NCBI GenBank assembly: GCA_022775045.1
Contig: JALFLB010000005.1
Location: forward strand, 1-64,000
From: Agathobacter sp.
Lineage (GTDB): Bacteria > Bacillota > Clostridia > Lachnospirales > Lachnospiraceae
DNA: 64,000 nt
Reading direction: 5' to 3'
The notes below the pieces were generated by a model. That model was not told the DNA's origin. It saw only the letters and a list, made by a program, of their open reading frames with translations, and searched no databases. Shown one piece after another: positions 2,817-63,236 of this stretch. The position numbers were made by a program, and so were the translations under genes. Numbering within the stretch: the stretch's first letter is position 1; every line of letters starts with the position of its first letter.

Positions 2817-3734
2817 ATGCGACATTTAATGAGTCCTTTGGACTTCTCGGTCGGGGAATTGGATCAGTTGCTGGATCTGGCACAGGACATCGAGAAGAAT
2901 CCACAAAAATATGCCCATGCCTGTGATGGTAAGAAGCTTGCAACTTGTTTCTATGAGCCAAGTACAAGAACGAGATTAAGCTTTGAGGCCGCAATGTTAA
3001 ATCTTGGCGGTTCTGTGTTAGGCTTTTCCAGTGCAGATTCATCTTCAGCAGCCAAGGGCGAAAGCATCTCTGATACAATTCGTGTTATTTCCTGCTATGC
3101 AGATATATGTGCAATGCGCCACCCAAAGGAAGGCGCTGCTCTGGTAGCATCCCAGAAGTCCCTGATTCCAGTGATCAATGCCGGGGACGGTGGACATCAG
3201 CATCCAACCCAGACATTAACAGATTTAATGACAATTCGTTCTCTGAAAGGAAGACTTGGCAATATCACCATCGGTTTGTGCGGGGATTTGAAGTTTGGGC
3301 GGACGGTACACTCGTTGATCAATGCACTGATCCGGTATGAGAATGTAAAGTTTGTGTTGATCTCCCCGGAGGAGCTTCGGATTCCGGATTATATCCGTGA
3401 GGATGTGTTGGTGGCAAATCATATTGAATTTGAAGAAGTGGAGCGCCTCGAGGATGCAATGAGCCAGCTTGATGTGCTTTATATGACAAGAGTTCAGAGG
3501 GAGCGCTTTTTTAATGAGGAGGATTATATCCGTCTGAAAGACTATTATATTCTGACCAAAGATAAGATGAAACTTGCCAAAGAGGATATGCTGGTGCTAC
3601 ATCCGCTGCCTCGTGTCAATGAGATTTCGGTGGAGGTGGATGACGATCCGCGTGCTGCTTATTTCAAACAGGCACAATATGGGGTTTATGTCCGTATGGC
3701 ACTGATTCTGACGCTTTTAAATATCACAGTATAA
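2817..3734 (+). CDS. pyrB: Aspartate carbamoyltransferase catalytic subunit
   Basis: Joins carbamoyl phosphate and aspartate to carbamoyl aspartate, the committed step of pyrimidine synthesis. At 305 residues it has family-typical length. The carbamoyl-phosphate loop STRTR is at 49-53, catalytic K80 sits in the mobile 80s loop (SSSAAKGES), HQHPTQ lies around 127-132, and HPLPR sits in the C-terminal aspartate domain. AGAGGAGG sits just before the ATG. pyrI begins 11 bp downstream, so the enzyme should assemble as the catalytic/regulatory type known from enteric bacteria and Clostridia. Confidence 0.98.
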
Positions 3735-3744
3735 GGAGCTTACG

Positions 3745-4197
3745 ATGTTAAATATTAGTGGAATTCATGAAGGTTTTGTTCTCGATCACATTCAGGCGGG
3801 AATGAGTCTGCAGATCTATCATGACCTGAAGCTGGACAAGCTGGATTGTTCGGTTGCCATTATTAAGAATGCGAAGAGCAATAAGATGGGAAAGAAGGAT
3901 ATCATCAAGGTGGAGTGCCCGATTGAGGCACTGGATCTGGATATTTTAGGTTTTATCGACCATAATATTACAGTCAATGTAATAAAGGGTGACAAGATTG
4001 TAGAGAAAAAGATTTTGTCACTTCCAAAGCAGGTTAAGAATGTGATTAAGTGTAAGAATCCACGCTGCGTCACTTCGATAGAGCAGGAATTGGATCAGAT
4101 TTTTCTGTTGACGGATGGAGAGAAGGAAGTGTACCGTTGCAAGTATTGTGAGGAAAAATATACAAATCCGAACAGACGCAAGATTAAGGTCGGATAG
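3745..4197 (+). CDS. pyrI: Aspartate carbamoyltransferase regulatory subunit
   Basis: A 150-residue allosteric subunit that binds nucleotides at its N-terminal domain and docks to PyrB through a zinc domain. The four zinc ligands are C103, C108, C132 and C135 (CKNPRC and CKYC). The N-terminal part (SGIHEGFVLDHIQAG) matches the effector-binding domain. A rho-independent terminator starts 5 bp after the stop, closing a two-gene pyrBI transcript. Confidence 0.97.
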   Translation: MLNISGIHEGFVLDHIQAGMSLQIYHDLKLDKLDCSVAIIKNAKSNKMGKKDIIKVECPIEALDLDILGFIDHNITVNVIKGDKIVEKKILSLPKQVKNVIKCKNPRCVTSIEQELDQIFLLTDGEKEVYRCKYCEEKYTNPNRRKIKVG

Positions 4198-4201
4198 AAG
4201 C

Positions 4202-4229
4202 GAGACGGCTTATGCCGTCTCCTTTTTTT
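4202..4229 (+). terminator. rho-independent terminator of pyrBI
   Basis: GAGACGGC (4202-4209), TTAT loop, GCCGTCTC (4214-4221), then a run of seven T (4223-4229). The hairpin overlaps the last codons and the stop of the convergent gene at 4210-4617. Confidence 0.92.
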
Positions 4230-4617
4230 GAGGCTGCCGGCAGAGCAGCTGTTCAAATAGAAGTCCTGCGATGACCCACAGAGGAAAATAGTCAAGGCGT
4301 ACCAGACCCGCAATGTTGTAGGGGGTTCCACTGTAGTCCCAGGGACATATGCCAAAAAAACGCAGGATGCTGCCGCTGAAAAATTCGCCTGCCATGATTG
4401 CCACGGCATAAAAGAAACCACGCAAAAGCATGGGCCAGTGTTTGATTTTTTTATAAATTGGACTGATCAGCGCAGCCATGCCGTAGATGGGAAACATCCA
4501 GACGGATGTATAGCCCATCAAATGGGCATCTCCATGCAGCAGTGCTCCAAAAGAGGTAAACAGAATTTCCATGCACCATCCGGTCAGTCCGCAGATCGCA
4601 AAGTTCTTCCAGTTCAT
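4210..4617 (-). CDS. Small multi-pass membrane protein (putative ABC-transporter type IV / CmpB-like)
   Basis: A 135-residue protein with about four hydrophobic segments. Pattern motifs such as GWCMEILFTS, GYTSVWMFPIYG and CPWDYSG match the PF06541-type family, often annotated 'putative ABC transporter permease' although no ATPase partner is usual. Role unknown. AAGGAG precedes the ATG on the minus strand. Its 3' end is buried in the pyrBI terminator. It is divergent from the tetrapyrrole operon. Confidence 0.75.
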   Translation of the reverse strand: MNWKNFAICGLTGWCMEILFTSFGALLHGDAHLMGYTSVWMFPIYGMAALISPIYKKIKHWPMLLRGFFYAVAIMAGEFFSGSILRFFGICPWDYSGTPYNIAGLVRLDYFPLWVIAGLLFEQLLCRQPQKKETA

Positions 4618-9825: not shown

Positions 9826-11724
9826 ATGAATATTCAAATGCAGGTTTGTGGGTTACTCATTATGCTGTTGCTGTTGTATTTTTGCATCAGGCAGAAATCT
9901 CTTTGGATGACAACTGAGCGGATGTTTCTGCGGACTCTCATTATTTCCATGATCTGCGTCAGCTTCGATATCCTCTCCATTGCAGCGATTGTCAACCGGG
10001 AGCATATCTCTGCTTTTGTACTTGCGTTTATATGTAAGAGTTACCTGGTATCTCTGGTTGCGGTAGGGTATTCCGGTCTTGTTTATACAAATATGGATCT
10101 TAGCAATGGGAAAATGGCACATACGCTAATGCTGGTGAGCCGTGTGGTTGGAATTGGAGCTGTTGCTTTGATCTATATTCTGCCAATTGATTACTATAAT
10201 GAGGGCAGAAGAGTTTATACACTTGGTGCCAGTGTGCAGGCAACCTATGTGTTTGCCCTGATATGTGTTCTTGCAACGATGTACCGGGTTCTGCGCTACG
10301 GAAACAGGATGAACCCGAAGCGTGCACATGCCATTCGGTCGTGGATGTGTCTGTGGATCCTTGCAACCGTGATTCAGGCGTGTAACAATTCAGTTCTGCT
10401 GGTTGGTTTTGCAACCTCTTTGGGAATGGTCATTTTGTTTTTTGAACTGGAAAATCCGGAAGCAAATATGGACAGGGAAACCGGAGCATTTAATTCTCAT
10501 GCCCTGAGGGAATTTATGAAGCAAAAATACCAGAATGGGGAACCATTTTCTTTGCTGTTAATCTCTTTGGAAAAATATCAGAGTGATGAGTTTGAAATGC
10601 GCAGAATTGAGGGCATTTTTCCAGATATAATCAGATATTTTGAGACGGTTCCGGATGCAAAGCTGTTTAAGAGAGTGGAACATGAACTGGTTCTGATGTT
10701 TCGGACACCGTATCAGCTGCAGAAGGTCTTTGCTCAGATTCAGGAACGTTTCAGGGAAAAGTGGGAGGAAAAGGAAAGGGGTTATTCTCTTGTAATCGAT
10801 CCTGTTTATGTGATTCTGCAGGACAGTTCTCTGGTGAACAGTGCGGAGGAGATATTCCGGATACTTGGAGCAGGCAAAGAAGAGAGAGAAGACGATTCGG
10901 TTATCTATATCGATAAGGAATTGTTGGTGCGAATGAAAGAAAAGGAGAATATTGCCAGAACAATCCGCAATGCGATCAGAGATGATCGTGTGGAAGTGTT
11001 TTACCAGCCGATTTACTCGGTGGCTAAAAAACAGTTTGTCTCAGCGGAGGCATTGGTGCGGATTCGAAATCAGGATGGAAGTATTTTACCGCCGGGAGTG
11101 TTTATTCCGGTTGCGGAGGAGAATGGAAGCATTCTTCGTCTGGGAGAGATCGTGTTTGAGAAAACCTGTGAGTTTATCAAAAAGAATGATATTCGAAAGC
11201 TTGGAATAGAGTATATCGAGGTGAATCTCTCTGTGGAGCAATGTGAGAATGAGAACCTTGCGGACAGTTATATCCGGGTTATGGAAAAATACCAGGTGGA
11301 TCCATCCCTGATCAATCTGGAGATTACGGAGACCGGATCAATTAAGGCGAGAAAGATTCTGTTGCGCAATATGGAAAAACTGATCGCGGTCGGTGTTAAG
11401 TTTTCGTTGGATGATTTTGGAAATGGCGAGAGTAATCTGAATTATATTGTGGATATGCCGGTTCAAATCGTCAAGTTTGACCGGGATATGACACAGGCAT
11501 ATTTTGCAAAAGAGAAGGCAAAATTTGTCATGCATGCAGCGAAAAATATGATTCAGGAGATGGGACTTGAGATTGTGGCGGAGGGAGTAGAAACCGAAGC
11601 ACAGCTTCAGTCTCTGGCAGAAATCAGCATTGATTTTATTCAGGGTTTCTATTTTTCAAAGCCGCTGCCTCAGGAGGAGTTTTTGAGATTTATTGAAGAG
11701 AGAAGGCAAAGCAAAACCTATTGA
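9826..11724 (+). CDS. Membrane sensor with degenerate GGDEF and intact EAL domain (c-di-GMP phosphodiesterase)
   Basis: A 632-residue protein from ATG 9826, which follows AGGAGG; an in-frame ATG at 9790 lacks a ribosome site. The first about 210 residues hold roughly seven hydrophobic segments. A GGDEF-like domain (about 220-350, starting DRETGAFNSHALREF) lacks the GGDEF signature and is probably inactive. The EAL domain (about 380-620) keeps the catalytic set: E408 in AEALVR, VNLS, EITETGS, DDFGNG, the following KFD lysine, AEGVE and QGFYFSKP. It should hydrolyse c-di-GMP. It lies inside the tetrapyrrole operon, 56 bp after hemC, an odd place for a signalling enzyme. Confidence 0.9.
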   Translation: MNIQMQVCGLLIMLLLLYFCIRQKSLWMTTERMFLRTLIISMICVSFDILSIAAIVNREHISAFVLAFICKSYLVSLVAVGYSGLVYTNMDLSNGKMAHTLMLVSRVVGIGAVALIYILPIDYYNEGRRVYTLGASVQATYVFALICVLATMYRVLRYGNRMNPKRAHAIRSWMCLWILATVIQACNNSVLLVGFATSLGMVILFFELENPEANMDRETGAFNSHALREFMKQKYQNGEPFSLLLISLEKYQSDEFEMRRIEGIFPDIIRYFETVPDAKLFKRVEHELVLMFRTPYQLQKVFAQIQERFREKWEEKERGYSLVIDPVYVILQDSSLVNSAEEIFRILGAGKEEREDDSVIYIDKELLVRMKEKENIARTIRNAIRDDRVEVFYQPIYSVAKKQFVSAEALVRIRNQDGSILPPGVFIPVAEENGSILRLGEIVFEKTCEFIKKNDIRKLGIEYIEVNLSVEQCENENLADSYIRVMEKYQVDPSLINLEITETGSIKARKILLRNMEKLIAVGVKFSLDDFGNGESNLNYIVDMPVQIVKFDRDMTQAYFAKEKAKFVMHAAKNMIQEMGLEIVAEGVETEAQLQSLAEISIDFIQGFYFSKPLPQEEFLRFIEERRQSKTY

Positions 11725-11752
11725 TGAAAGATGGTTGAAGAAAGGAAACAAA

Positions 11753-13270
11753 ATGTCCGGTATGGTATATTTAGTAGGAGCAGGACCCGGGGATCCTGGA
11801 CTTGTGACCGCAAGAGGTTTGGAACTGATTAAAAAGGCAGACTGCATCATATACGACCGGCTTAGTGCGCCGGAACTTTTAGATTATGCACGTGCAGACT
11901 GCGAGCAAATCTATGTCGGAAAAGCAGATCAGCATCACACACTGCCTCAGGAAGAAATCAATGCGCTTCTGGTGGAGAAGGCAAGGTTACTTTCCAATGT
12001 GGTGAGACTGAAGGGTGGGGATGTTTATGTGTTCGGAAGAGGTGGAGAGGAAGGAATCTATCTTGCAGAACATGGAATTGCATTTACGGTTGTTCCGGGA
12101 GTAAGCTCTGCCATCGCTGGAGCAGCTTATGCGGGAATTCCGGTTACTCATCGTGGCATAGCGACAGCATTTCGCGTCATTACCGCGCACAATCGCAAGG
12201 ATCAGACAACAGAGATGGATTTTGCATCCATGAGGGATGATCAGGAAACACTGATTTTTCTCATGGGACTTAGCAAAGTGGGAGAAATTGCAGACGGACT
12301 GATGGAAGCAGGCCGTACCGGAAATACTCCGGTGGCGGTAATTTCACATGCGACGACACCGGCGCAGAAAGTCTGTGTGGGGTCACTTGATACCATTGCG
12401 CAAAAGGTAAGCGTACAGCAGCTGACATCACCGGCAATGATCGTAGTTGGGGAAGTTGTCCGGCTACGGGAGACACTGAATGTTTTTGAAAAAATGCCGC
12501 TTTTTGGAAAAAAATATCTGGTGCCGAAGATCGGAAGCGAGCCATCCCGTCTTGCGGAGCGCCTTCGTGCAAAGGGGGCAGCAGTGACAGAATGTATGGT
12601 GGGAGAAATTGTGGGTATTCCGGCAAGATATACCCGTCAGGAATTGTCACAGGTGGATATTCTTTTGTTTACCAGTCAGAACGGAGTCGAATACTTTATG
12701 AGAAATCTGTTTGCTTCCGGGCTGGATGTGCGCATATTGAGCCATGCGCGGCTTGTGGTAATCGGACAGAAGACAGCGCAGAAATTGCGTGAGTATGGAC
12801 TGTGTGCTGATTTCATTCCGGAGAAGTTTGACAGTGATGCGCTTCTGTCAGAACTGAAGCAGTACATGAAGCAGCTTCATGCGGACGATCCATTTCGCAG
12901 ACTGGTCACATGGTATCCGACGGCGAAGAATGCAAAGGATGAACTGGTGGATGGACTGCTGGAGGTGTGTGACTGTGGCCGGCTGAATGTGTATGACAAT
13001 GTGGTGTGTGAACCAAAGATCAATGGGACTCCTGCTTCAATTAACGATGAAGAACTTATTTCCTATGATGGAATTTTCTTTACCTGCGCATCTTCTGCGG
13101 AGCGTCTGCTGGGCGGAAAGAATCTGGAATTTCTGCAGCAGCTTGGGGTACACACCTCAATTTATTCAATCGGACCGAAGTGCAGCCGTGCGTTAGGCAG
13201 TCTGGGAATCACCCCGGTTATCGAGGCCGGGGTCCATACCTACGAGGGCCTTCTGCGCCTCATTCTTTAA
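11753..13270 (+). CDS. cobA-hemD: Fused uroporphyrinogen-III C-methyltransferase / uroporphyrinogen-III synthase
   Basis: A 505-residue two-domain enzyme. Residues 1-245 are a SAM-dependent uroporphyrinogen-III methyltransferase (VYLVGAGPGDPGLVT, LKGGDVYVFGRGGEE, GIPVTHRG) that makes precorrin-2. Residues about 250-505 are HemD, which cyclises hydroxymethylbilane (GKKYLVPKIGS, FTSQNGVEYF, FFTCASSAERLL). The fusion is common in Clostridia and commits flux to siroheme/cobalamin. ATG 11753 is used since MSGMVYLVGAGPG matches the family start. Foldback copy A begins 3 bp after the stop. Confidence 0.96.
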   Translation: MSGMVYLVGAGPGDPGLVTARGLELIKKADCIIYDRLSAPELLDYARADCEQIYVGKADQHHTLPQEEINALLVEKARLLSNVVRLKGGDVYVFGRGGEEGIYLAEHGIAFTVVPGVSSAIAGAAYAGIPVTHRGIATAFRVITAHNRKDQTTEMDFASMRDDQETLIFLMGLSKVGEIADGLMEAGRTGNTPVAVISHATTPAQKVCVGSLDTIAQKVSVQQLTSPAMIVVGEVVRLRETLNVFEKMPLFGKKYLVPKIGSEPSRLAERLRAKGAAVTECMVGEIVGIPARYTRQELSQVDILLFTSQNGVEYFMRNLFASGLDVRILSHARLVVIGQKTAQKLREYGLCADFIPEKFDSDALLSELKQYMKQLHADDPFRRLVTWYPTAKNAKDELVDGLLEVCDCGRLNVYDNVVCEPKINGTPASINDEELISYDGIFFTCASSAERLLGGKNLEFLQQLGVHTSIYSIGPKCSRALGSLGITPVIEAGVHTYEGLLRLIL

Positions 13271-13272
13271 AA

Positions 13273-13925
13273 CAGGCATTGGCCATTGCAAAATGATTAT
13301 GCACTTTGAATTGTTCACCTGCAGCAGAAGATGATTCTATGCGAGTCATATCAAGTGACTTTCCCGTGTATTTCTCTATACGATTCATGCCACAACTCGC
13401 ATTCCAGGCTACCAATTGCACCCAACGGAATTTTTATCCTTATGGATGTTTCTTTGTTTGCATTTTTCCGCGCCGATATTTCTAGCGCCCTTCGGATATC
13501 TGCACCGCCGTTGGTGCGCCTTTTAGTAAATCGTGCAGATGTTAGGCATCCGGGCAATAAATGAACGGCGGGGAAGCGCACACGATGTGCGCTTAGGCAT
13601 GCCAAAGCCATGGATGGCGGTTCATGCCGTCCCCGCCGTGAAACCTCGAAGAGTGCCCGGATGCTTACAACTGCTAGATTTACGGTTTGCGCGCACCAAC
13701 GGCGGTGCAGATAACGAAGAGGCGAGAAATATCGCACTCACCAAATGCAAAGACGAAACATCTTTGATAAAAATTCCTACCTTGGGGCAATTTGTGCATG
13801 GATGCGAATGATTGTGTCATAAATGGTATAGAAATATGCACGGGGATAAGCCACCAGAAATCATTCGCATAGAATCGTATTCTGGAGCAGGCAGACAACA
13901 AAAAATAGAATTTTGCAATTGCCTG
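13273..13925. repeat. Foldback element copy A (about 650-bp imperfect palindrome)
   Basis: The whole interval reads as one long imperfect inverted repeat. The outer arms are CAGGCATTGGCCATTGC (13273 on) and, reverse complemented from 13925, CAGGCAATTGC. Inner arms GATTCTATGCGA (13333-13344) and TCGCATAGAATC (near 13865-13876) match exactly. They continue inward as GTAAATC/GATTTAC, GCATCCGGGCA/TGCCCGGATGC and CGGCGGGGA (13566-13574)/TCCCCGCCG (13630-13638). Small hairpins stand in the arms (GCACC-6-GGTGC at 13502-13517) and at the tip (GCGCACA-3-TGTGCGC). No transposase or clear target duplication is seen. Open frames across it are by-products of the palindrome. An inverted relative lies at 62285-62933. 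Confidence 0.9.
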
Positions 13926-13955: not shown

Positions 13956-16187
13956 GTGACTTATGCAAATGTGATAGTGGATATTTCGGTAGAAAAGCTG
14001 GATAAATCCTTTCAGTATCGGATTCCAGAAGAACTGAAGGAGAACATAGAGGTCGGAGTTCAGGTGGATATACCCTTTGGGAGTCGCACACTGACCGGAT
14101 ATGTGATAGAATTGACCGATGAGGCAGAGTTTGATGTTGAAAAGATTCGGCCTTTGATTGGAATTCATAAAGGCAGTGTTCCGATGGAATCCCAATTGAT
14201 TGCATTGGCGGGCTGGATGCGAAAACATTATGGATCAACCATGAATCAGGCGTTGAAGGCAGTGCTTCCTATCCGGAGACAGACAAAGCATGTTGAGCAT
14301 CGAAAAATCTGCCTGTTGCTTTCTGTGGAGGAGGCAAGGCAGAAGCTGGCTCTTTTTGAGGCGAAGCATTACACGGCGAAGGCACGGCTTCTTCGGGAAT
14401 TGATCGCACAGCCGGAACTGGACTATACACTGGTAACGAATAAATTAAATATTTCAGTGGCAACAATCCGGGGGATGCAGCAACAGGAAATCCTTTCGGT
14501 GGAAACCATCCGCCAGTACCGCAATCCGGTTGCACACCTGAATCAGCAAGGGTATCATCTGATGCTGAATGAGGATCAACAGAGAGTCGCGGATATGGTG
14601 ATCGCGGATATGGATGCCGGACGGATGGAAACATATCTGCTCAAAGGCGTGACAGGAAGCGGTAAGACGGAAGTATATATGGAACTGATTGCCCATGTAC
14701 TGGAGAAAGGGAGACAGGCAATCATGCTGATTCCGGAGATTGCGCTGACTTATCAGACTGTCATGCGGTTTTATAACCGGTTTGGAGACCGGGTGTCCAT
14801 TATGAATTCCAGGCTTTCCATGGGGGAACGTTATGATCAGTTTGAGCGCGCAAAGGCGGGGGATATCGATATTATGATCGGACCTCGTTCGGCACTTTTT
14901 GCCCCGTTTCCGAATCTTGGACTGATTATTATAGACGAGGAACATGAGACATCCTACAAAAGTGAGACAGCGCCGCGTTATCATGCCAGAGAGGTGGCAA
15001 TCGAGCGGGCGCGGATGAGTCATGCCAGTGTCGTGCTGGGTTCAGCAACTCCGTCTATTGACAGCTATTATCAGGCGAAGCTGGGAAATTACCGTTTGCT
15101 GGAATTGAACCAGCGGGTGAAGGAACAGGCGCTTCCTTCCTGCGAGATTGTGGATATGAGAAAGGAATTACGTGAGGGAAACCGTTCCATTTTGAGTGAA
15201 CGGCTGCAGGAACTGATGGAGGAGCGACTGGAAAAACAGGAGCAGATCATGCTTTTTCTCAATCGGAGAGGGGTATCGGGATTTATTTCATGCAGAGCGT
15301 GCGGATATGTGTTAAAATGTCCTCATTGCGATGTATCCTTAAGTCAGCATGCTGGTGGCAGAATGATTTGTCATTACTGTGGTTATGAGGAACCTGTGCC
15401 GGAGGTATGTCCTTCCTGCGGCAGCAAATATCTGGGAGGATTTAAGGCTGGAACCCAGAAGATTGAGATGCTGGTACAGAAGAGGTTTCCGAAGGCGAAG
15501 GTACTGCGGATGGATTTTGATACAACGAGGACAAAGGATTCCTATGAGAAAATTTTGCAGACTTTTGCCAATCATGAGGCAGATATCCTGATTGGAACCC
15601 AGATGATTGTCAAAGGGCACGACTTCGCAAATGTGACGCTGGTGGGGGTGCTCGCGGCAGATATGTCTTTACATGTACCGGATTTTCATGCCTCAGAGCG
15701 CACGTTCCAGCTTTTGACACAGGCTGTGGGACGTGCCGGAAGGGGAGAAAAGGCCGGGCAGGCGATTATTCAGACTTACGATCCCGATCATTTTGCGATT
15801 CAGACTGCACAGGAACAAAATTATGAATCATTTTATGCACAGGAGATTGCCTATCGCAACATGCTACTGTATCCGCCGGTCTGGAATCTTCTGGTGGTAC
15901 ACTGTGCAGGAGAAGATTATGAGATTGTTGCGGAAGCATCGGAGAAACTTGCACTGCGGCTACAGCAGGAAATTGCCACGCAGGGCGGTCGTACGTTGCT
16001 TGTGGGACCGGCAGATGCAGCAATTTCCAGAATCAATGATGTATTTCGTAAGGTCATTTATATGAAAAGCGCCGGGTATGAGATGCTGGTCGGCCTGAAG
16101 GATGACCTTGAGCTGTATCTCAAGGAGGAGAGCATATTTGACAAAGTGACAGTTCAATTTGATTTTAACCCGACAAGTGGTTTTTAG
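13956..16187 (+). CDS. priA: Primosomal replication restart helicase PriA
   Basis: Superfamily-2 helicase that reloads the replisome at stalled forks. A 743-residue protein. The N-terminal DNA-binding domain starts TYANVIVDISVEKLD. Walker A GVTGSGKTE is near 231, Walker B DEEH near 327, and there are paired cysteines binding zinc at about 447-490 (CRACGY, CPHC, CHYCGY, CPSCG). GTG 13956 is chosen because GGAGGAGG lies 7 bp upstream. It opens the long translation/cell-wall signalling operon; the only upstream non-coding DNA is foldback copy A, so its promoter must lie in or before that element. Confidence 0.97.
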   Translation: MTYANVIVDISVEKLDKSFQYRIPEELKENIEVGVQVDIPFGSRTLTGYVIELTDEAEFDVEKIRPLIGIHKGSVPMESQLIALAGWMRKHYGSTMNQALKAVLPIRRQTKHVEHRKICLLLSVEEARQKLALFEAKHYTAKARLLRELIAQPELDYTLVTNKLNISVATIRGMQQQEILSVETIRQYRNPVAHLNQQGYHLMLNEDQQRVADMVIADMDAGRMETYLLKGVTGSGKTEVYMELIAHVLEKGRQAIMLIPEIALTYQTVMRFYNRFGDRVSIMNSRLSMGERYDQFERAKAGDIDIMIGPRSALFAPFPNLGLIIIDEEHETSYKSETAPRYHAREVAIERARMSHASVVLGSATPSIDSYYQAKLGNYRLLELNQRVKEQALPSCEIVDMRKELREGNRSILSERLQELMEERLEKQEQIMLFLNRRGVSGFISCRACGYVLKCPHCDVSLSQHAGGRMICHYCGYEEPVPEVCPSCGSKYLGGFKAGTQKIEMLVQKRFPKAKVLRMDFDTTRTKDSYEKILQTFANHEADILIGTQMIVKGHDFANVTLVGVLAADMSLHVPDFHASERTFQLLTQAVGRAGRGEKAGQAIIQTYDPDHFAIQTAQEQNYESFYAQEIAYRNMLLYPPVWNLLVVHCAGEDYEIVAEASEKLALRLQQEIATQGGRTLLVGPADAAISRINDVFRKVIYMKSAGYEMLVGLKDDLELYLKEESIFDKVTVQFDFNPTSGF

Positions 16188-58822: not shown

Positions 58823-61347
58823 AACGTTCAAGGCTTCCATATGCGATGGCATTTGCCCTGCCTTTTATCATATGTGTGGTGATCTGCATCGCGAATGGGG
58901 TTTATCCGTTTGGAAACAACTGTATCTTGCATATGGATATGTATCACCAGTACTGTCCGTTTTTTACAGAGTTTCTGGAAAAATTACAAAATGGCGGAAG
59001 TATGCAGTACTCCTGGAATCTGGGACTTGGATCGGACTTCGTTTCGCTTTATGCTTATTATCTGGCGAGTCCGCTTAATTTATTGCTGCTTCTTTGCCCG
59101 AAAAGCTATGTCATTGAGCTGATGACACTTTTGATACTGGGGAAGATTGCAGCCTCCGGCCTTGCGTTCTTTATTTTTCTGGAATATCATTACCGGATGA
59201 TCGGAAAAGATAACAATCTGCACTGGAATCAGGTGGCTCCGGCGCTGGTTTTTTCCACGGCGTATGCCCTGTCCGGATTTGTGGCTGCTTATAGCTGGGA
59301 TATTATGTGGATGGACTGCATTGCGCTGTTCCCGCTGATTATGGTGGGACTTGAGCGGCTGGTGCAGGAAAAAAAGCCGGGACTTTATTTCGTGACGCTT
59401 GCGCTGTCTATCTTCTCCAATTATTATATTTCCATCATGATCTGCATTTTTCTGCTATTTTATTTTGCACTTCTGTTTGTACAGAATAAAGGAAAGAGGA
59501 TGGGGGCATTTCTTCGTTTTTCCTGGTATTCTCTGCTTGCAGGGGCGAGCTCGGCGGTTTTGCTGCTGCCGGAGATCGCAATCCTTGGAAGCTCCGGCTC
59601 GGCGGAGGACAGTTTTCCGGAAAAGATGGAGTGGTATTTCAATATATTGGCGGAATTGGGACGCGGAGCAACCACAGCGAGTGCCTATACAGGCAATGAT
59701 CACTGGCCGAATCTGTATGCGGGAGCCTTTTCGCTGGTACTGGTGTGGATTTATGTGCTGAACCGGAGAATTTCCTGGAAGGAAAAGGTTCCGCGGATGC
59801 TGATGCTGGCATTTTTCCTGGTGAGCTTTGCCAACAACCAGCTGGATTACATCTGGCATGGATTTCATTTTCCGCAGGCATTGCCGGGAAGACAGTCGTT
59901 TCTTTATATTTTCGTAATCTTATCAATGGGATTTGCCACGGTGAGAAAATGGAAAGGGACCAGACTGTGGCATATTCTGACGGCAACTGTGGTGGCGCTG
60001 CTGCTGCTTCTGGCTGGGGGAATGTATGGTCCTAAAGAGGTGACGGAGCCTTTCTCTTTGATTATTACTGCGCTTTTTCTCTGTGTTTACGGAATTATCA
60101 TGCTGCTGCTCAAATTGACGGAGGAGAAAAAGCTGCGCCGTATGCTGCAGACTTTTGTATTCGGCATTGTGATTGCGGAGCTGGCAATCAACATGGCAGT
60201 GACCGGACTGGGTGTGACGAGCCGGGTGGCGTATATGGATAAGCAGGAGGCATACCGGCAGCTGCTGGCGATGGCCCAAGAGGACAATGACAAAACCGGC
60301 AATACCTTTTACCGGGTGGAGGATACCGGACGCAAGACAAAAAATGATGATTCGCTGTATGGGTATCCGTCGGCAACGATTTTTTCTTCTCTGATGAATC
60401 TGGATGTCAGTCATCTGTTTCAGTGCATGTATATGGAGGGGGGGAAGAATTTTTATTGTTATAACGGGGCGACACCGCTTCCGTCGGCAATGTTGTCCGT
60501 GCGCTACATGCTTTCAGCAAATCAGATGGAAGAGGGACCGCTTCGAACTTTGGTGGGCAGCAGTAACGGAAATTATCTGTACCGGAATAATTACTGGCTT
60601 CCGATGGGAATTATGATGGATGAGGAAGCGATTGCTTCCTGGAAAGCGGAGGATGTCGACAGGATCCGCTCCCTCAATTCTTTCGCCACCGCTTTGGGAG
60701 CAGAGGGGGAGATGCTTTATCCGGCAACCGTCGCGATGGAGGAACAGGCAGGGAATACGACCATTGATATTGCGGAGGATGGCTATTATTATGCGGACTA
60801 TGTGACCTGTGATTCAGATACTCTGACGGTCAGCAGAAGTGATGGCTGGACAAAGCAGTATTCCAAGACGACGCATCGCTATCTGATTGAATTGGGAGAG
60901 TGTAAAGCCGGAACGGAAATTCATATTACGAATATGAATGCGGAGAACATCAGCTTTCGAGTATATCAGATGAATTTTAACGCCCTTGATGAGGCCTATG
61001 CGACGATGGGGAGACAGACTATGGAACTGACCGACATGACAGATCGACGGATCGAAGGGGAGATTCAGGTGTCTGAGGCAGGCCGGCTGATTCTGCCGGT
61101 TCCGGCAGATCAGGGATGGGAACTCTACGTCGATGGCAGAAAAACACAGATCAATCCTTTCTTTGATGCCCTGATTGCCGTGCATCTGGAAGAAGGAAAT
61201 CATACAATCCGGCTGCAGTACACTACGCCCGGATTAAAAATAGGGGCAGCAGTTAGTGCAGGAGCGCTAGGACTTTTTGCCCTCAGCATGCTGCTCTGTG
61301 GCATTTGGAAGAAAAAAGGGGGAAGAGATGGCAAAAAAACGGATTAG
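58819..61347 (+). CDS. yfhO: YfhO-family membrane glycosyltransferase
   Basis: An 842-residue protein with about a dozen membrane segments in the first 470 residues and two near the C-terminus, with a large external domain between. Early conserved acidic residues lie in ILHMDMYHQYCPFF and SWNLGLGSDF, as in GT-C fold transferases. In Bacillus and Listeria, YfhO-type proteins use an undecaprenyl-phosphate sugar made by a CsbB/GtlB-type enzyme to glycosylate lipoteichoic acid outside the cell. Both neighbours here fit that scheme. ATGA overlap with the LtaS-like gene; the end overlaps the glycosyltransferase by 20 bp. Confidence 0.9.
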   Translation: MKRSRLPYAMAFALPFIICVVICIANGVYPFGNNCILHMDMYHQYCPFFTEFLEKLQNGGSMQYSWNLGLGSDFVSLYAYYLASPLNLLLLLCPKSYVIELMTLLILGKIAASGLAFFIFLEYHYRMIGKDNNLHWNQVAPALVFSTAYALSGFVAAYSWDIMWMDCIALFPLIMVGLERLVQEKKPGLYFVTLALSIFSNYYISIMICIFLLFYFALLFVQNKGKRMGAFLRFSWYSLLAGASSAVLLLPEIAILGSSGSAEDSFPEKMEWYFNILAELGRGATTASAYTGNDHWPNLYAGAFSLVLVWIYVLNRRISWKEKVPRMLMLAFFLVSFANNQLDYIWHGFHFPQALPGRQSFLYIFVILSMGFATVRKWKGTRLWHILTATVVALLLLLAGGMYGPKEVTEPFSLIITALFLCVYGIIMLLLKLTEEKKLRRMLQTFVFGIVIAELAINMAVTGLGVTSRVAYMDKQEAYRQLLAMAQEDNDKTGNTFYRVEDTGRKTKNDDSLYGYPSATIFSSLMNLDVSHLFQCMYMEGGKNFYCYNGATPLPSAMLSVRYMLSANQMEEGPLRTLVGSSNGNYLYRNNYWLPMGIMMDEEAIASWKAEDVDRIRSLNSFATALGAEGEMLYPATVAMEEQAGNTTIDIAEDGYYYADYVTCDSDTLTVSRSDGWTKQYSKTTHRYLIELGECKAGTEIHITNMNAENISFRVYQMNFNALDEAYATMGRQTMELTDMTDRRIEGEIQVSEAGRLILPVPADQGWELYVDGRKTQINPFFDALIAVHLEEGNHTIRLQYTTPGLKIGAAVSAGALGLFALSMLLCGIWKKKGGRDGKKTD

Positions 61348-62284
61348 TATTGTAGTACCCATGTACAATGAACAAGATTCCCTGACCATTCTGTATCAGG
61401 AACTGAATCGTGTGACTGAAAAATTAGACGGATATGAATTTGAGTATCTTTTTGTGAATGATGGTTCCTCCGATGGAACACTTGCCAAGATCAAAAGCCT
61501 GGCAGAGCGCGATACGAGAGTCCGCTATGTTTCCTTCTCCAGAAATTTTGGAAAAGAAGCGGCACTGTATGCTGGATTGGGCACTGCAACCGGGGACTAT
61601 GTTGCAACGATGGACGCGGATTTACAGGATCCTCCCGCACTTCTCCCGAAAATGATCGAGATGCTGGAGGAGGGTTGCTGCGACAATGTCGCAACAAGGC
61701 GGGTGAACCGTAGGGGGGAGCCGCCGATCAGGTCCTTTTTTGCGAGATGCTTTTATAAGCTGATGAGACATCTTACACAGATTGATATCGCGGATGGGGC
61801 GAGGGACTTTCGTCTGATGCGCCGGGAAATGGTTGATTCTATCCTTGCGGTGGAGGAATATAATCGTTTTTCCAAGGGCATTTTTGCGTGGGTTGGTTAC
61901 GAGACCCGATGGCTGGAATTTGAAAATGTAGAGAGGGCGGCAGGAGAGACGAAGTGGAGCTTTTGGAAGCTGGTCCGGTATTCGATGGATGGGATTATCA
62001 ATTTTTCAGATATGCCAATTCGGATTTCTTCCTATCTCGGACTGCTGCTGACGGTGCTGTCATTTGTGGCGATTGTTGTAGAAGTGATCCGTGCACTGGT
62101 ATTCGGCGATCCGGTTGCAGGCTGGCCATCCCTGGTATGCATTATCACGTTTATCGGCGGAATCCAACTGTTTTGTATGGGAATCATGGGGCAGTATATA
62201 GCCAAGACCTATATGGAAGTCAAACATCGGCCTCACTACATTATAAAAGAAAGCAATTGCGAAAACATTAAGCGCAACCATTGA
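61328..62284 (+). CDS. CsbB/GtrB-like polyprenyl-phosphate glycosyltransferase
   Basis: A 318-residue GT2 enzyme that should load a sugar onto undecaprenyl phosphate. ISIVVPMYNEQ opens the GT-A fold, FVNDGSSDGT binds nucleotide, DADLQDP (D96, D98) binds metal, GARDFRLM and GETKWSFWKL are family motifs, and two C-terminal membrane segments lie at about 238-260 and 273-300. It ends ESNCENIKRNH; the DNA for these last residues contains GCAATTGCGAA, the same motif that forms the edge of foldback copy B just downstream. ATG 61328 (GGAAGAG upstream) is used. Confidence 0.92.
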   Translation: MAKKRISIVVPMYNEQDSLTILYQELNRVTEKLDGYEFEYLFVNDGSSDGTLAKIKSLAERDTRVRYVSFSRNFGKEAALYAGLGTATGDYVATMDADLQDPPALLPKMIEMLEEGCCDNVATRRVNRRGEPPIRSFFARCFYKLMRHLTQIDIADGARDFRLMRREMVDSILAVEEYNRFSKGIFAWVGYETRWLEFENVERAAGETKWSFWKLVRYSMDGIINFSDMPIRISSYLGLLLTVLSFVAIVVEVIRALVFGDPVAGWPSLVCIITFIGGIQLFCMGIMGQYIAKTYMEVKHRPHYIIKESNCENIKRNH

Positions 62285-62933
62285 CAGGCAATTGCGAACT
62301 TAATCCGTTTTGTACTATCCGCCAGCATCAGTGTGTGATTCTATGTGGATCGTTTTCGGTGGTTTACCCTGTGTGTATCTCTATACCATTTATGACACAA
62401 TCATTCGCATCCATGCACAAATTGCCCCAAGGTAGGAATTTTTATCAAAGATGTTTCGTCTTTGCATTTGGTGAGTGCGATATTTCTCGTCTCTTCGTTA
62501 TCTGCACCGCCGTTGGTGCGCACAAACCGTAAATCTAGCAGTTGTAAGCATCCGGGCACTCTTCGAGGTTTCACGGCGGGGGCGGCATGAACCGCCATCC
62601 ATGGCTTTGACATGCCTAAACGCACATCGTGTGCGTTCCCCCGCCGTTCATTTATTGCCCGGATGCCTAACATCTGCACGATTTACTAAAAGGCGCACTA
62701 ACAGCGGTGCAGATATCCGAAGGACGTTAGAAATATCGGCGCGGAAAAATGCAAACAAAGAAACATCCATAAGGATAAAAATTCCGTTGGGTGCAATTTG
62801 TAGCCTGGAATGCGAGTTGTGGCATAAATCGTATAGAGATATACACGGGAAAGCCACTTGGTATGACTCACATAGAATCACACACTGATGCAGGCGGCTA
62901 ATTCAAAACAGGAAGTCGTTTGGCACTTGCTTA
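62285..62933. repeat. Foldback element copy B (inverted relative of copy A)
   Basis: A 649-bp imperfect palindrome, in the opposite orientation to copy A. Edges CAGGCAATTGCGAAC (62285 on) and GTTTGGCACTTGCTTA (to 62933). A 23-bp inverted repeat is perfect within the copy, 62324-62346 against 62869-62891 (GCATCAGTGTGTGATTCTAT and its complement plus GTG). Central stems are CGGCGGGGG (62574-62582)/CCCCCGCCG (62638-62646) and AACGCACA-TCG-TGTGCGTT. The inner about 400 bp is nearly identical to copy A reversed; the outer about 90 bp on each side differs between copies but still pairs within the copy. No transposase. Confidence 0.9.
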
Positions 62934-62963: not shown

Positions 62964-63236
62964 ATGAACAAGGAAAACAGAAAAAAGGCACAGGAGGCAC
63001 GTGCACAGAAGAAAGCCAGGGAGGAAAAGAAAAATAAGATTGGGAAAGTGATGAAATTCTGGGTGCCGATTATCGGAATTGTTGTGATTACGATTGTACT
63101 GATTGTGGCGATTGCAACATCAGGGGCAGATAACTCAGGAGAAAATGTTTCCGATGATTCCCAGATTGAAATGAATTTTACAGATGATGACGGCAATGTA
63201 TATGAGGTTACAGACATGTCCGAAATCGAGGAATAA
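62964..63236 (+). CDS. Small single-pass membrane protein
   Basis: A 90-residue protein. The N-terminus is highly basic (KENRKKAQEARAQKKAREEK), then one membrane segment (about 32-50: FWVPIIGIVVITIVLIVAIA), then a short acidic, Asp/Asn/Glu-rich external tail. No known family. AGAGGAG precedes the ATG. It follows foldback copy B directly, so its promoter is either in that element or upstream of it. Confidence 0.75.
   Translation: MNKENRKKAQEARAQKKAREEKKNKIGKVMKFWVPIIGIVVITIVLIVAIATSGADNSGENVSDDSQIEMNFTDDDGNVYEVTDMSEIEE

Follow-up and report, generated by a model that had tools for sequence, protein, structure and literature searches.

The TwoAYGGAY motif is held in Rfam as RF01731, a 168-nt model filed under type Cis-reg; the accessible part of Weinberg et al. 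2010 (PMC2864571) tabulates it as an RNA ('y') with an 'n' under both cis-regulation and switch, and gives human gut, gamma-Proteobacteria, and Clostridiales as its sources. Among the matches listed in a literature search, no title or abstract names TwoAYGGAY, and in the accessible literature searched, mostly outside subscription journals, we found no report of the foldback element described here as a transposon. Bacterial MITEs, by their usual definition, resemble this element in having no recognizable gene and many intergenic copies and, as far as its relatives in other genomes are concerned, in their terminal inverted repeats and 8-9 bp target duplications; the present element differs in being palindromic almost throughout, in a single-unit length of as much as 776 bp, and in its conserved double-hairpin tip. 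The FB foldback elements of Drosophila share with it the long inverted repeats that fill almost the whole element, but the element considered here is bacterial, possesses a conserved hairpin tip, and has no tandem-repeat arms in the aligned copies. The REP/BIME sequences associated with RAYT, a system with the hallmarks of a RAYT gene and a GTAG/GGAG-footed hairpin, are likewise intergenic imperfect palindromes near gene ends with strand-specific hairpin features, whereas the present element is far longer and comes with target duplications. TwoAYGGAY itself is matched above threshold by both copies analyzed here, with two hairpins and AYGGAY-type loops (the first one G short); the difference is that the motif here forms the tip of a longer palindrome that, in relatives, shows terminal repeats, target duplications, and random orientation with respect to genes.

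The two copies lie within 64,000 nucleotides of Agathobacter sp. (contig JALFLB010000005.1), the whole stretch of DNA that was analyzed, hereafter the window. The features on which the following account draws are:

11693..13270, + strand, fused uroporphyrinogen-III methyltransferase / HemD gene, the 5' neighbour of copy 1
13273..13925, + strand (orientation from the RF01731 tip), foldback copy 1, delimited by self-alignment, fold, and copy comparison
13372..13832, + strand, inner unit of copy 1, with 447 of 461 bases the same as in copy 2
13522..13682, + strand, tip of copy 1, RF01731 TwoAYGGAY, 58.6 bits (gathering 43)
13574..13594, + strand, first tip hairpin, loop ACGAT (AYGGAY minus one G), from the sequence and the model alignment
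13607..13618, + strand, second tip hairpin, loop ATGGAT, from the sequence and the model alignment
13910..13925, - strand, outermost repeat CAGGCAATTGCAAAAT at the right end of copy 1, the left end being degenerate
13956..16187, + strand, priA, neighbour of copy 1 and anchor for the empty-site search in relatives
61277..62284, + strand, family 2 glycosyltransferase gene, the 5' neighbour of copy 2 (best NCBIfam model PgfS, below cut-off)
62285..62300, + strand, outermost repeat CAGGCAATTGCGAACT of copy 2, the same element end as 13910-13925
62285..62933, - strand, foldback copy 2, inverted, delimited by own-genome DNA search and copy comparison
62530..62690, - strand, tip of copy 2, RF01731 TwoAYGGAY, 57.7 bits

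The initial annotation had described two imperfect palindromes of about 650 bp, inverted to each other, and this description holds. Copy 1 (653 bp) is self-complementary, by gapped alignment, over 643 bp at 72%, and copy 2 (649 bp) over 610 bp at 73%. Folded as RNA, copy 1 reaches a minimum free energy of -330.9 kcal/mol against a mean of -185.5 (sd 5.6, z -26.2) for 20 dinucleotide shuffles, and copy 2 reaches -344.0 kcal/mol in a single fold. Compared in inverted orientation, the copies are identical at 580 of 646 aligned bases (90%); the near-identity claimed for the inner 400 bp is borne out as well (388 of 400 at 13399-13798), and the outer parts match at 93 of 120 and 99 of 126 bases (78-79%). 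Identity between the two copies steps from 97% in the inner 461 bp to these outer values, and a similar step is present among the copies of Agathobacter ruminis JK623 (genome G009, NZ_PDYG01000100.1); gene conversion between copies, or nesting, could be the cause of the unequal divergence. The setting between co-directional genes and next to stop codons is also as originally described: copy 1 starts 2 nt past the HemD-type stop codon and ends 30 bp before priA, copy 2 starts immediately past the stop codon of the glycosyltransferase gene and has a short reading frame at 62964 on the + strand as its other neighbour, and the genes flanking both copies are all on the + strand.

Searched at the DNA level, the genome itself (G000, 90% complete) yields exactly two copies, both in the window. 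Each has retained CAGGCAATTGC at one element end, the opposite end being degenerate; in their flanking sequence no target duplication is seen, and there is no T-run beside either copy. Elsewhere in the same genome (L196 1481-1516, contig C50 near 81603), upstream of a start codon, lies a 36-bp inverted repeat whose ends resemble the ends of the window copies; it may be a remnant that has lost its tip completely. The longest frames inside the copies, of 128 and 137 aa, are antisense to the tip motif; Pfam gives no match for them, and PHROG gives one only at E 0.25-0.43; the two frames differ by 5 synonymous and 11 other codon changes, and a frame as long as these arises in 55 of 500 simulated sequences. 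A protein encoded in the copies finds no support here, and the earlier statement that they carry no transposase holds.

The initial annotation had recognized no named family, and for the tip this is not so: a scan against Rfam 15, with a covariance-model gathering score of 43 bits, places RF01731 there, spanning 161 of the 653 bp of copy 1; this double hairpin makes up the non-palindromic tip of an element that is otherwise an imperfect inverted repeat over almost all its length. The tip hairpins covary, with double changes in 20 of 20 predicted pairs across 42 sequences (window copies included), and 406 of 433 pairs are Watson-Crick, with 4 G-U and 2 A-C. A wider set of 68 tip hairpins has 10 G-U, no A-C, and 37 other mismatches; a terminator control with little power has 32, 20, and 63, respectively (tip wobble test p 0.05 and 0.44).

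RF01731 is widespread beyond this genome. It was found in 25 of 62 genomes of the genus, in 1 to at least 37 copies per genome, in at least 65 of 397 genomes of the family, and in at least 36 of 391 genomes of the class (27 above the cut-off), against 0 of 14 controls in each case; the genome counts are lower bounds, drawn from the best 37, 6, and 7 candidates per genome, respectively, and each sample includes the genome of the window. As DNA, the window subfamily is found outside its own genome just once, as a 33-bp match, among the best two candidates per genome in the 397 family genomes, and nothing beyond one 41-bp match was found among the subset of the relatives' loci that was searched. 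An annotated Rfam family, or absence from every other genome, had been named as grounds against an unnamed mobile or structured element. The former exists, at the tip only; the latter nearly holds for the window subfamily at the DNA level in the 397 family genomes and does not hold for RF01731. A window copy has no match in the phage and plasmid collections, nor do one relative locus searched against plasmids (L083) and another searched against phages (L054). A further locus (L305) and a typed end query each match one Roseburia plasmid, the end query's four other matches being at chance level, and three exact patterns found 0 matches each in viral contigs.

Self-alignment of the relatives' loci places RF01731 centrally within palindromes, with no palindrome detected by this approach at loci L019, L090, L095, L102, L105, and L106. 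We retained 88 distinct palindromes with a bit score >80 and away from locus ends, a set that takes in both window copies and 9 loci chosen by end pattern; 5 are shorter than 250 bp, 52 measure 250-430 bp, 26 measure 431-780 bp, and 5 are longer. The 431-780 bp class comes mostly from A. ruminis, where the range is 305 to 776 bp. One genome (G005) has, at loci L045, L047, L048, and L053, double foldbacks of ~970-1080 bp with two inverted RF01731 cores each; these are 79-92% alike over almost their full length and are repeated as one unit. A frame of at least 120 aa overlaps 3 of the 88 palindromes; where such a frame is present on each side (n=73), the flanking frames are co-directional in 40 cases, convergent in 23, and divergent in 10.

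Eight main-type copies of A. ruminis are 79-89% alike, 30-bp flanks included, with the best pairs at 90-92% over ~600 bp, whereas the arms within single copies of this genome are 69-76% complementary; the copies resemble each other more than their own arms pair and, therefore, were copied as units. Copies within one genome have diverged, the best pairs listed being 70-97% identical. Double changes in the arms of the A. ruminis and G013 copies number 12 and 43 against 4.7 and 31 expected, and co-change in the window pair is not significant (p 0.59 and 0.10); these paired counts do not establish arm-to-arm correction. Derivation of copy-specific arms from insertion into older hairpins fits loci L081 and L099 by eye.

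The A. ruminis copies terminate in GTTACCATTCACAG. Allowing at most 2 mismatches, the pattern GTTACCATTCACAGNNTG has 46 matches in this genome and 22 in G013, against 2 and 3 for reversed controls, and pairs of it enclose foldbacks of 595-597 bp as well as shorter forms of 463, 427, 423, 399, 364, 353, 273, 233 (twice), and 109 bp. An exact 8-bp duplication, TTTCTAAC, flanks a 596-bp copy of this type that carries RF01731, and further exact 8-bp duplications flank the 463-bp form (AATAAAAG), the 353-bp form (AAAACTCT), and the 109-bp form (GTAAAGAG); 7 of 8 bases match at a 597-bp and at a 233-bp copy, and fewer or none at the remaining GTTACCATTCACAGNNTG-bounded copies. In G005, copies L050 and L054 have the ends GATGTTGG and the duplications ATGATAAT and AAAATAAT, and the pattern GATGTTGGGG occurs in 5 places. 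A second end repeat, ATTCGGGTGTCAAAAGG (the ATTCGGG type), is present in 11 of 61 genomes (G054, G005, G010, G032, and others; reversed control 0) and is accompanied by 9-bp duplications of the form CCTATAAGG: 15 of 30 insertions of this type have 7-9 of 9 duplication bases matching, against 7.2% of shuffled pairs, after a de-duplication that also removed real sites, including three with a 9/9 match; a smaller set passes the same criterion at 11 of 20, three of these at 9/9. There are, then, at least three end types (GTTACC, GATGTTGG, and ATTCGGG) around the same kind of tip. When, instead, the ends are taken from self-alignment, a flanking direct repeat scoring at least 8 accompanies 14 of the 88 palindromes, against 2.4% with flanks shuffled, and one scoring at least 10 accompanies 3 of 88, against 0.06%; two of the 14 come from loci chosen by end pattern and one (TTTTTTTG) is of low complexity, and a clear duplication is absent at the other 74. 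On two A. ruminis contigs, C47 (L160 1501-1636) and C99 (L166 1-357), GTTACCATTCACAG borders an array of 54-bp units that has its own inverted repeat; in L166 the array comprises 5.2 copies with 93% matches. This is a different cargo with GTTACCATTCACAG ends, truncated by the contig ends.

The site of copy 1 can be compared with its unoccupied counterparts. The hemD-priA order is found in 4 of 29 relatives' priA loci, namely Roseburia faecis M72 (G002, NZ_CVRR01000060.1), G036, G029, and G053, and the element is absent in 4 of 4, the hemD stop being separated from the priA start by 2 bp, 27 bp, 7 bp (to the first aligned priA codon), and 8 bp, respectively. The empty-site comparison covers this site, and the four relatives, with PriA 73-76% identical, are too distantly related for a duplication in the window to be delimited. 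The ATTCGGG-type insertions favor particular surroundings: in 19 of 30, the element is preceded by T5 or followed by A5 within 24 bp, compared with 328 of 1611 random intergenic points (20.4%; p 4e-7) sampled in the priA regions of other genomes; in the smaller set this applies to 15 of 20. Half of the 30 measure 301-318 bp and the other 15 measure 37-199 bp. The short forms inspected, of both the ATTCGGG and the A. ruminis types, look like the element minus its tip, and long palindromes in bacteria are, indeed, expected to shrink via hairpin cleavage and slippage. A 313-bp copy with a 4/9 duplication resides on a complete plasmid of Roseburia sp. 831b (L319, NZ_CP135163.1). There (3668-4397) the foldback sits between a cobalamin riboswitch (RF00174) with a T-run hairpin and a cobaltochelatase gene, the RF01731 strand being opposite to the riboswitch transcript; it may alter read-through of the riboswitch.

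Mobility of the element is supported by what is shown in relatives: the terminal repeats, the 8-9 bp duplications at some sites, the different flanks, the empty hemD-priA sites, the excess near T-runs for one end type, and the shorter forms without a tip. The window foldbacks themselves are, in all likelihood, old copies of this non-autonomous, MITE-like palindromic transposable element, because they have the RF01731 tip and the foldback anatomy, occur as two inverted copies with different flanks, and one of them occupies a site that is empty in relatives. The initial annotation had proposed searching Lachnospiraceae genomes for empty sites and for a full-length relative with a transposase; the former were found, and the latter was not. 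The 25 proteins scanned beside end repeats include no transposase, and four of them have no Pfam family; many end repeats of A. ruminis and G054 sit at contig ends, beyond which they could not be followed. Among the A. ruminis end repeats there is no pair 1-3 kb apart other than one in L205, which was rejected as an autonomous element, one of its repeats having three mismatches and the pair enclosing thiC. Single ATTCGGG repeats and a 1.65-kb pair in L299 were likewise set aside after six proteins included no transposase. At twenty further places, the end repeats form pairs 45-313 bp apart in 14 cases and 1.8 kb apart in one, and are unpaired in five, and the proteins scanned beside the unpaired repeats include no transposase. 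In the 1.8-kb pair (L345 751-2558, G020 contig C707), ATTCGGG-type ends surround a gene with an HXXEE domain and a second, TetR-like gene whose Pfam score falls below the cut-off, without a transposase; this is, perhaps, an element that acquired genes.

The other possibility raised by the initial annotation was a structured RNA, cis-regulatory or trans-acting, with a stem that is kept since the transcript must fold. The Rfam type of RF01731, its marking as an RNA in the accessible table of Weinberg et al. 2010 (PMC2864571), and the covariation and G-U over A-C balance of the tip hairpins all point that way, but the stem does not, and we regard this explanation as improbable. A stem retained for the sake of its transcript should accept G-U on the sense strand much more readily than A-C. 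Instead, the outer arms of the 48 orientable elements among the 88 contain 4585 Watson-Crick pairs, 131 G-U, 130 A-C, and 568 other; a looser pass over 38 elements gives 166 G-U, 240 A-C, and 804 other; the pair-breaking changes in eight A. ruminis and two G013 copies number 32, 38, and 84; and the fringe of the window pair (copy 1 pairing) has 7, 14, and 13. The stems of 19 tRNAs in the same loci, a control in crude register, do favor G-U (26, against 7 A-C and 52 other). Furthermore, the RF01731 strand is that of the co-directional neighbours in just 15 of 28 cases and the opposite in 13, and 15 of the 30 ATTCGGG-type copies are too short for the tip. With no wobble preference and a random placement relative to gene direction, the long stem has the behaviour of strand-symmetric DNA, and these counts and orientations speak against a maintained RNA stem or cis-regulator. 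Hence, of the two initial alternatives, the non-autonomous transposable element stands, on the strength of the terminal repeats, duplications, empty sites, and copy number in relatives, and the maintained RNA fold does not. An RNA role for the tip itself, a matter less clear than for the stem, would fit the covariation and the 10 G-U against no A-C.

Movement as single-stranded DNA by a Y1/HUH enzyme, akin to REP/RAYT or IS200/IS605, with the tip hairpins as recognition sites, would account for the strand-specific conserved loops, the near-exclusive Watson-Crick pairing of these hairpins, and the occurrence of palindromic elements in mostly intergenic positions near T-runs. Y1 enzymes, however, are not known to leave target duplications, and the 8- and 9-bp duplications together with terminal inverted repeats seen in relatives are typical of DDE transposases, so that such an enzyme is improbable here. 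The same exact duplications, along with the empty sites, make it very unlikely that these are large non-mobile intergenic repeats (BIME-, ERIC-, or NEMIS-like) spread by recombination alone, even if the divergence of copies within genomes and the mere two copies of the window subfamily would suit such repeats. Finally, palindromes can be artefacts of metagenome assembly, but the two copies lie at distinct sites and have imperfect arms, and the same type occurs in the single-contig genomes G005 and G008 and on the complete plasmid NZ_CP135163.1, which leaves an assembly or chimera artefact a negligible prospect.

With a non-autonomous transposable element as the preferred reading, the following scenario can be outlined. 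A DDE-type transposase, supplied in trans, would cut at the terminal repeats and make 8-9 bp staggered joins; insertions would survive because they land behind genes; the long palindrome would later lose sequence from its tip through hairpin cleavage or replication slippage; and the conserved tip hairpins would function at the DNA level within the cycle of the element itself, conceivably, at a guess, as protein-bound DNA. The presence of at least three end types around the same tip implies that the tip may be the inherited part. A more far-reaching proposal, which we offer tentatively and consider somewhat doubtful, is that RF01731 is not a regulatory RNA but the DNA core, serving recognition or protection, of a superfamily of giant palindromic transposons found across the Clostridia, in which the tip, rather than the ends, is inherited, and a protein that recognizes both AYGGAY loops in extruded single-stranded DNA keeps the palindromes alive or mobile.

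Taken together, the genome comparisons suggest that the catalogued TwoAYGGAY motif could belong to a mobile DNA element instead of being an RNA that controls genes. If so, an Rfam 'cis-regulatory RNA' without a known role would turn out to be the core of such an element, and the annotation of RF01731 in gut Clostridia should change. The natural series of long palindromes of many sizes, with tip deletions frozen among them, would, moreover, provide material on how giant hairpins are tolerated and dismantled in bacteria.
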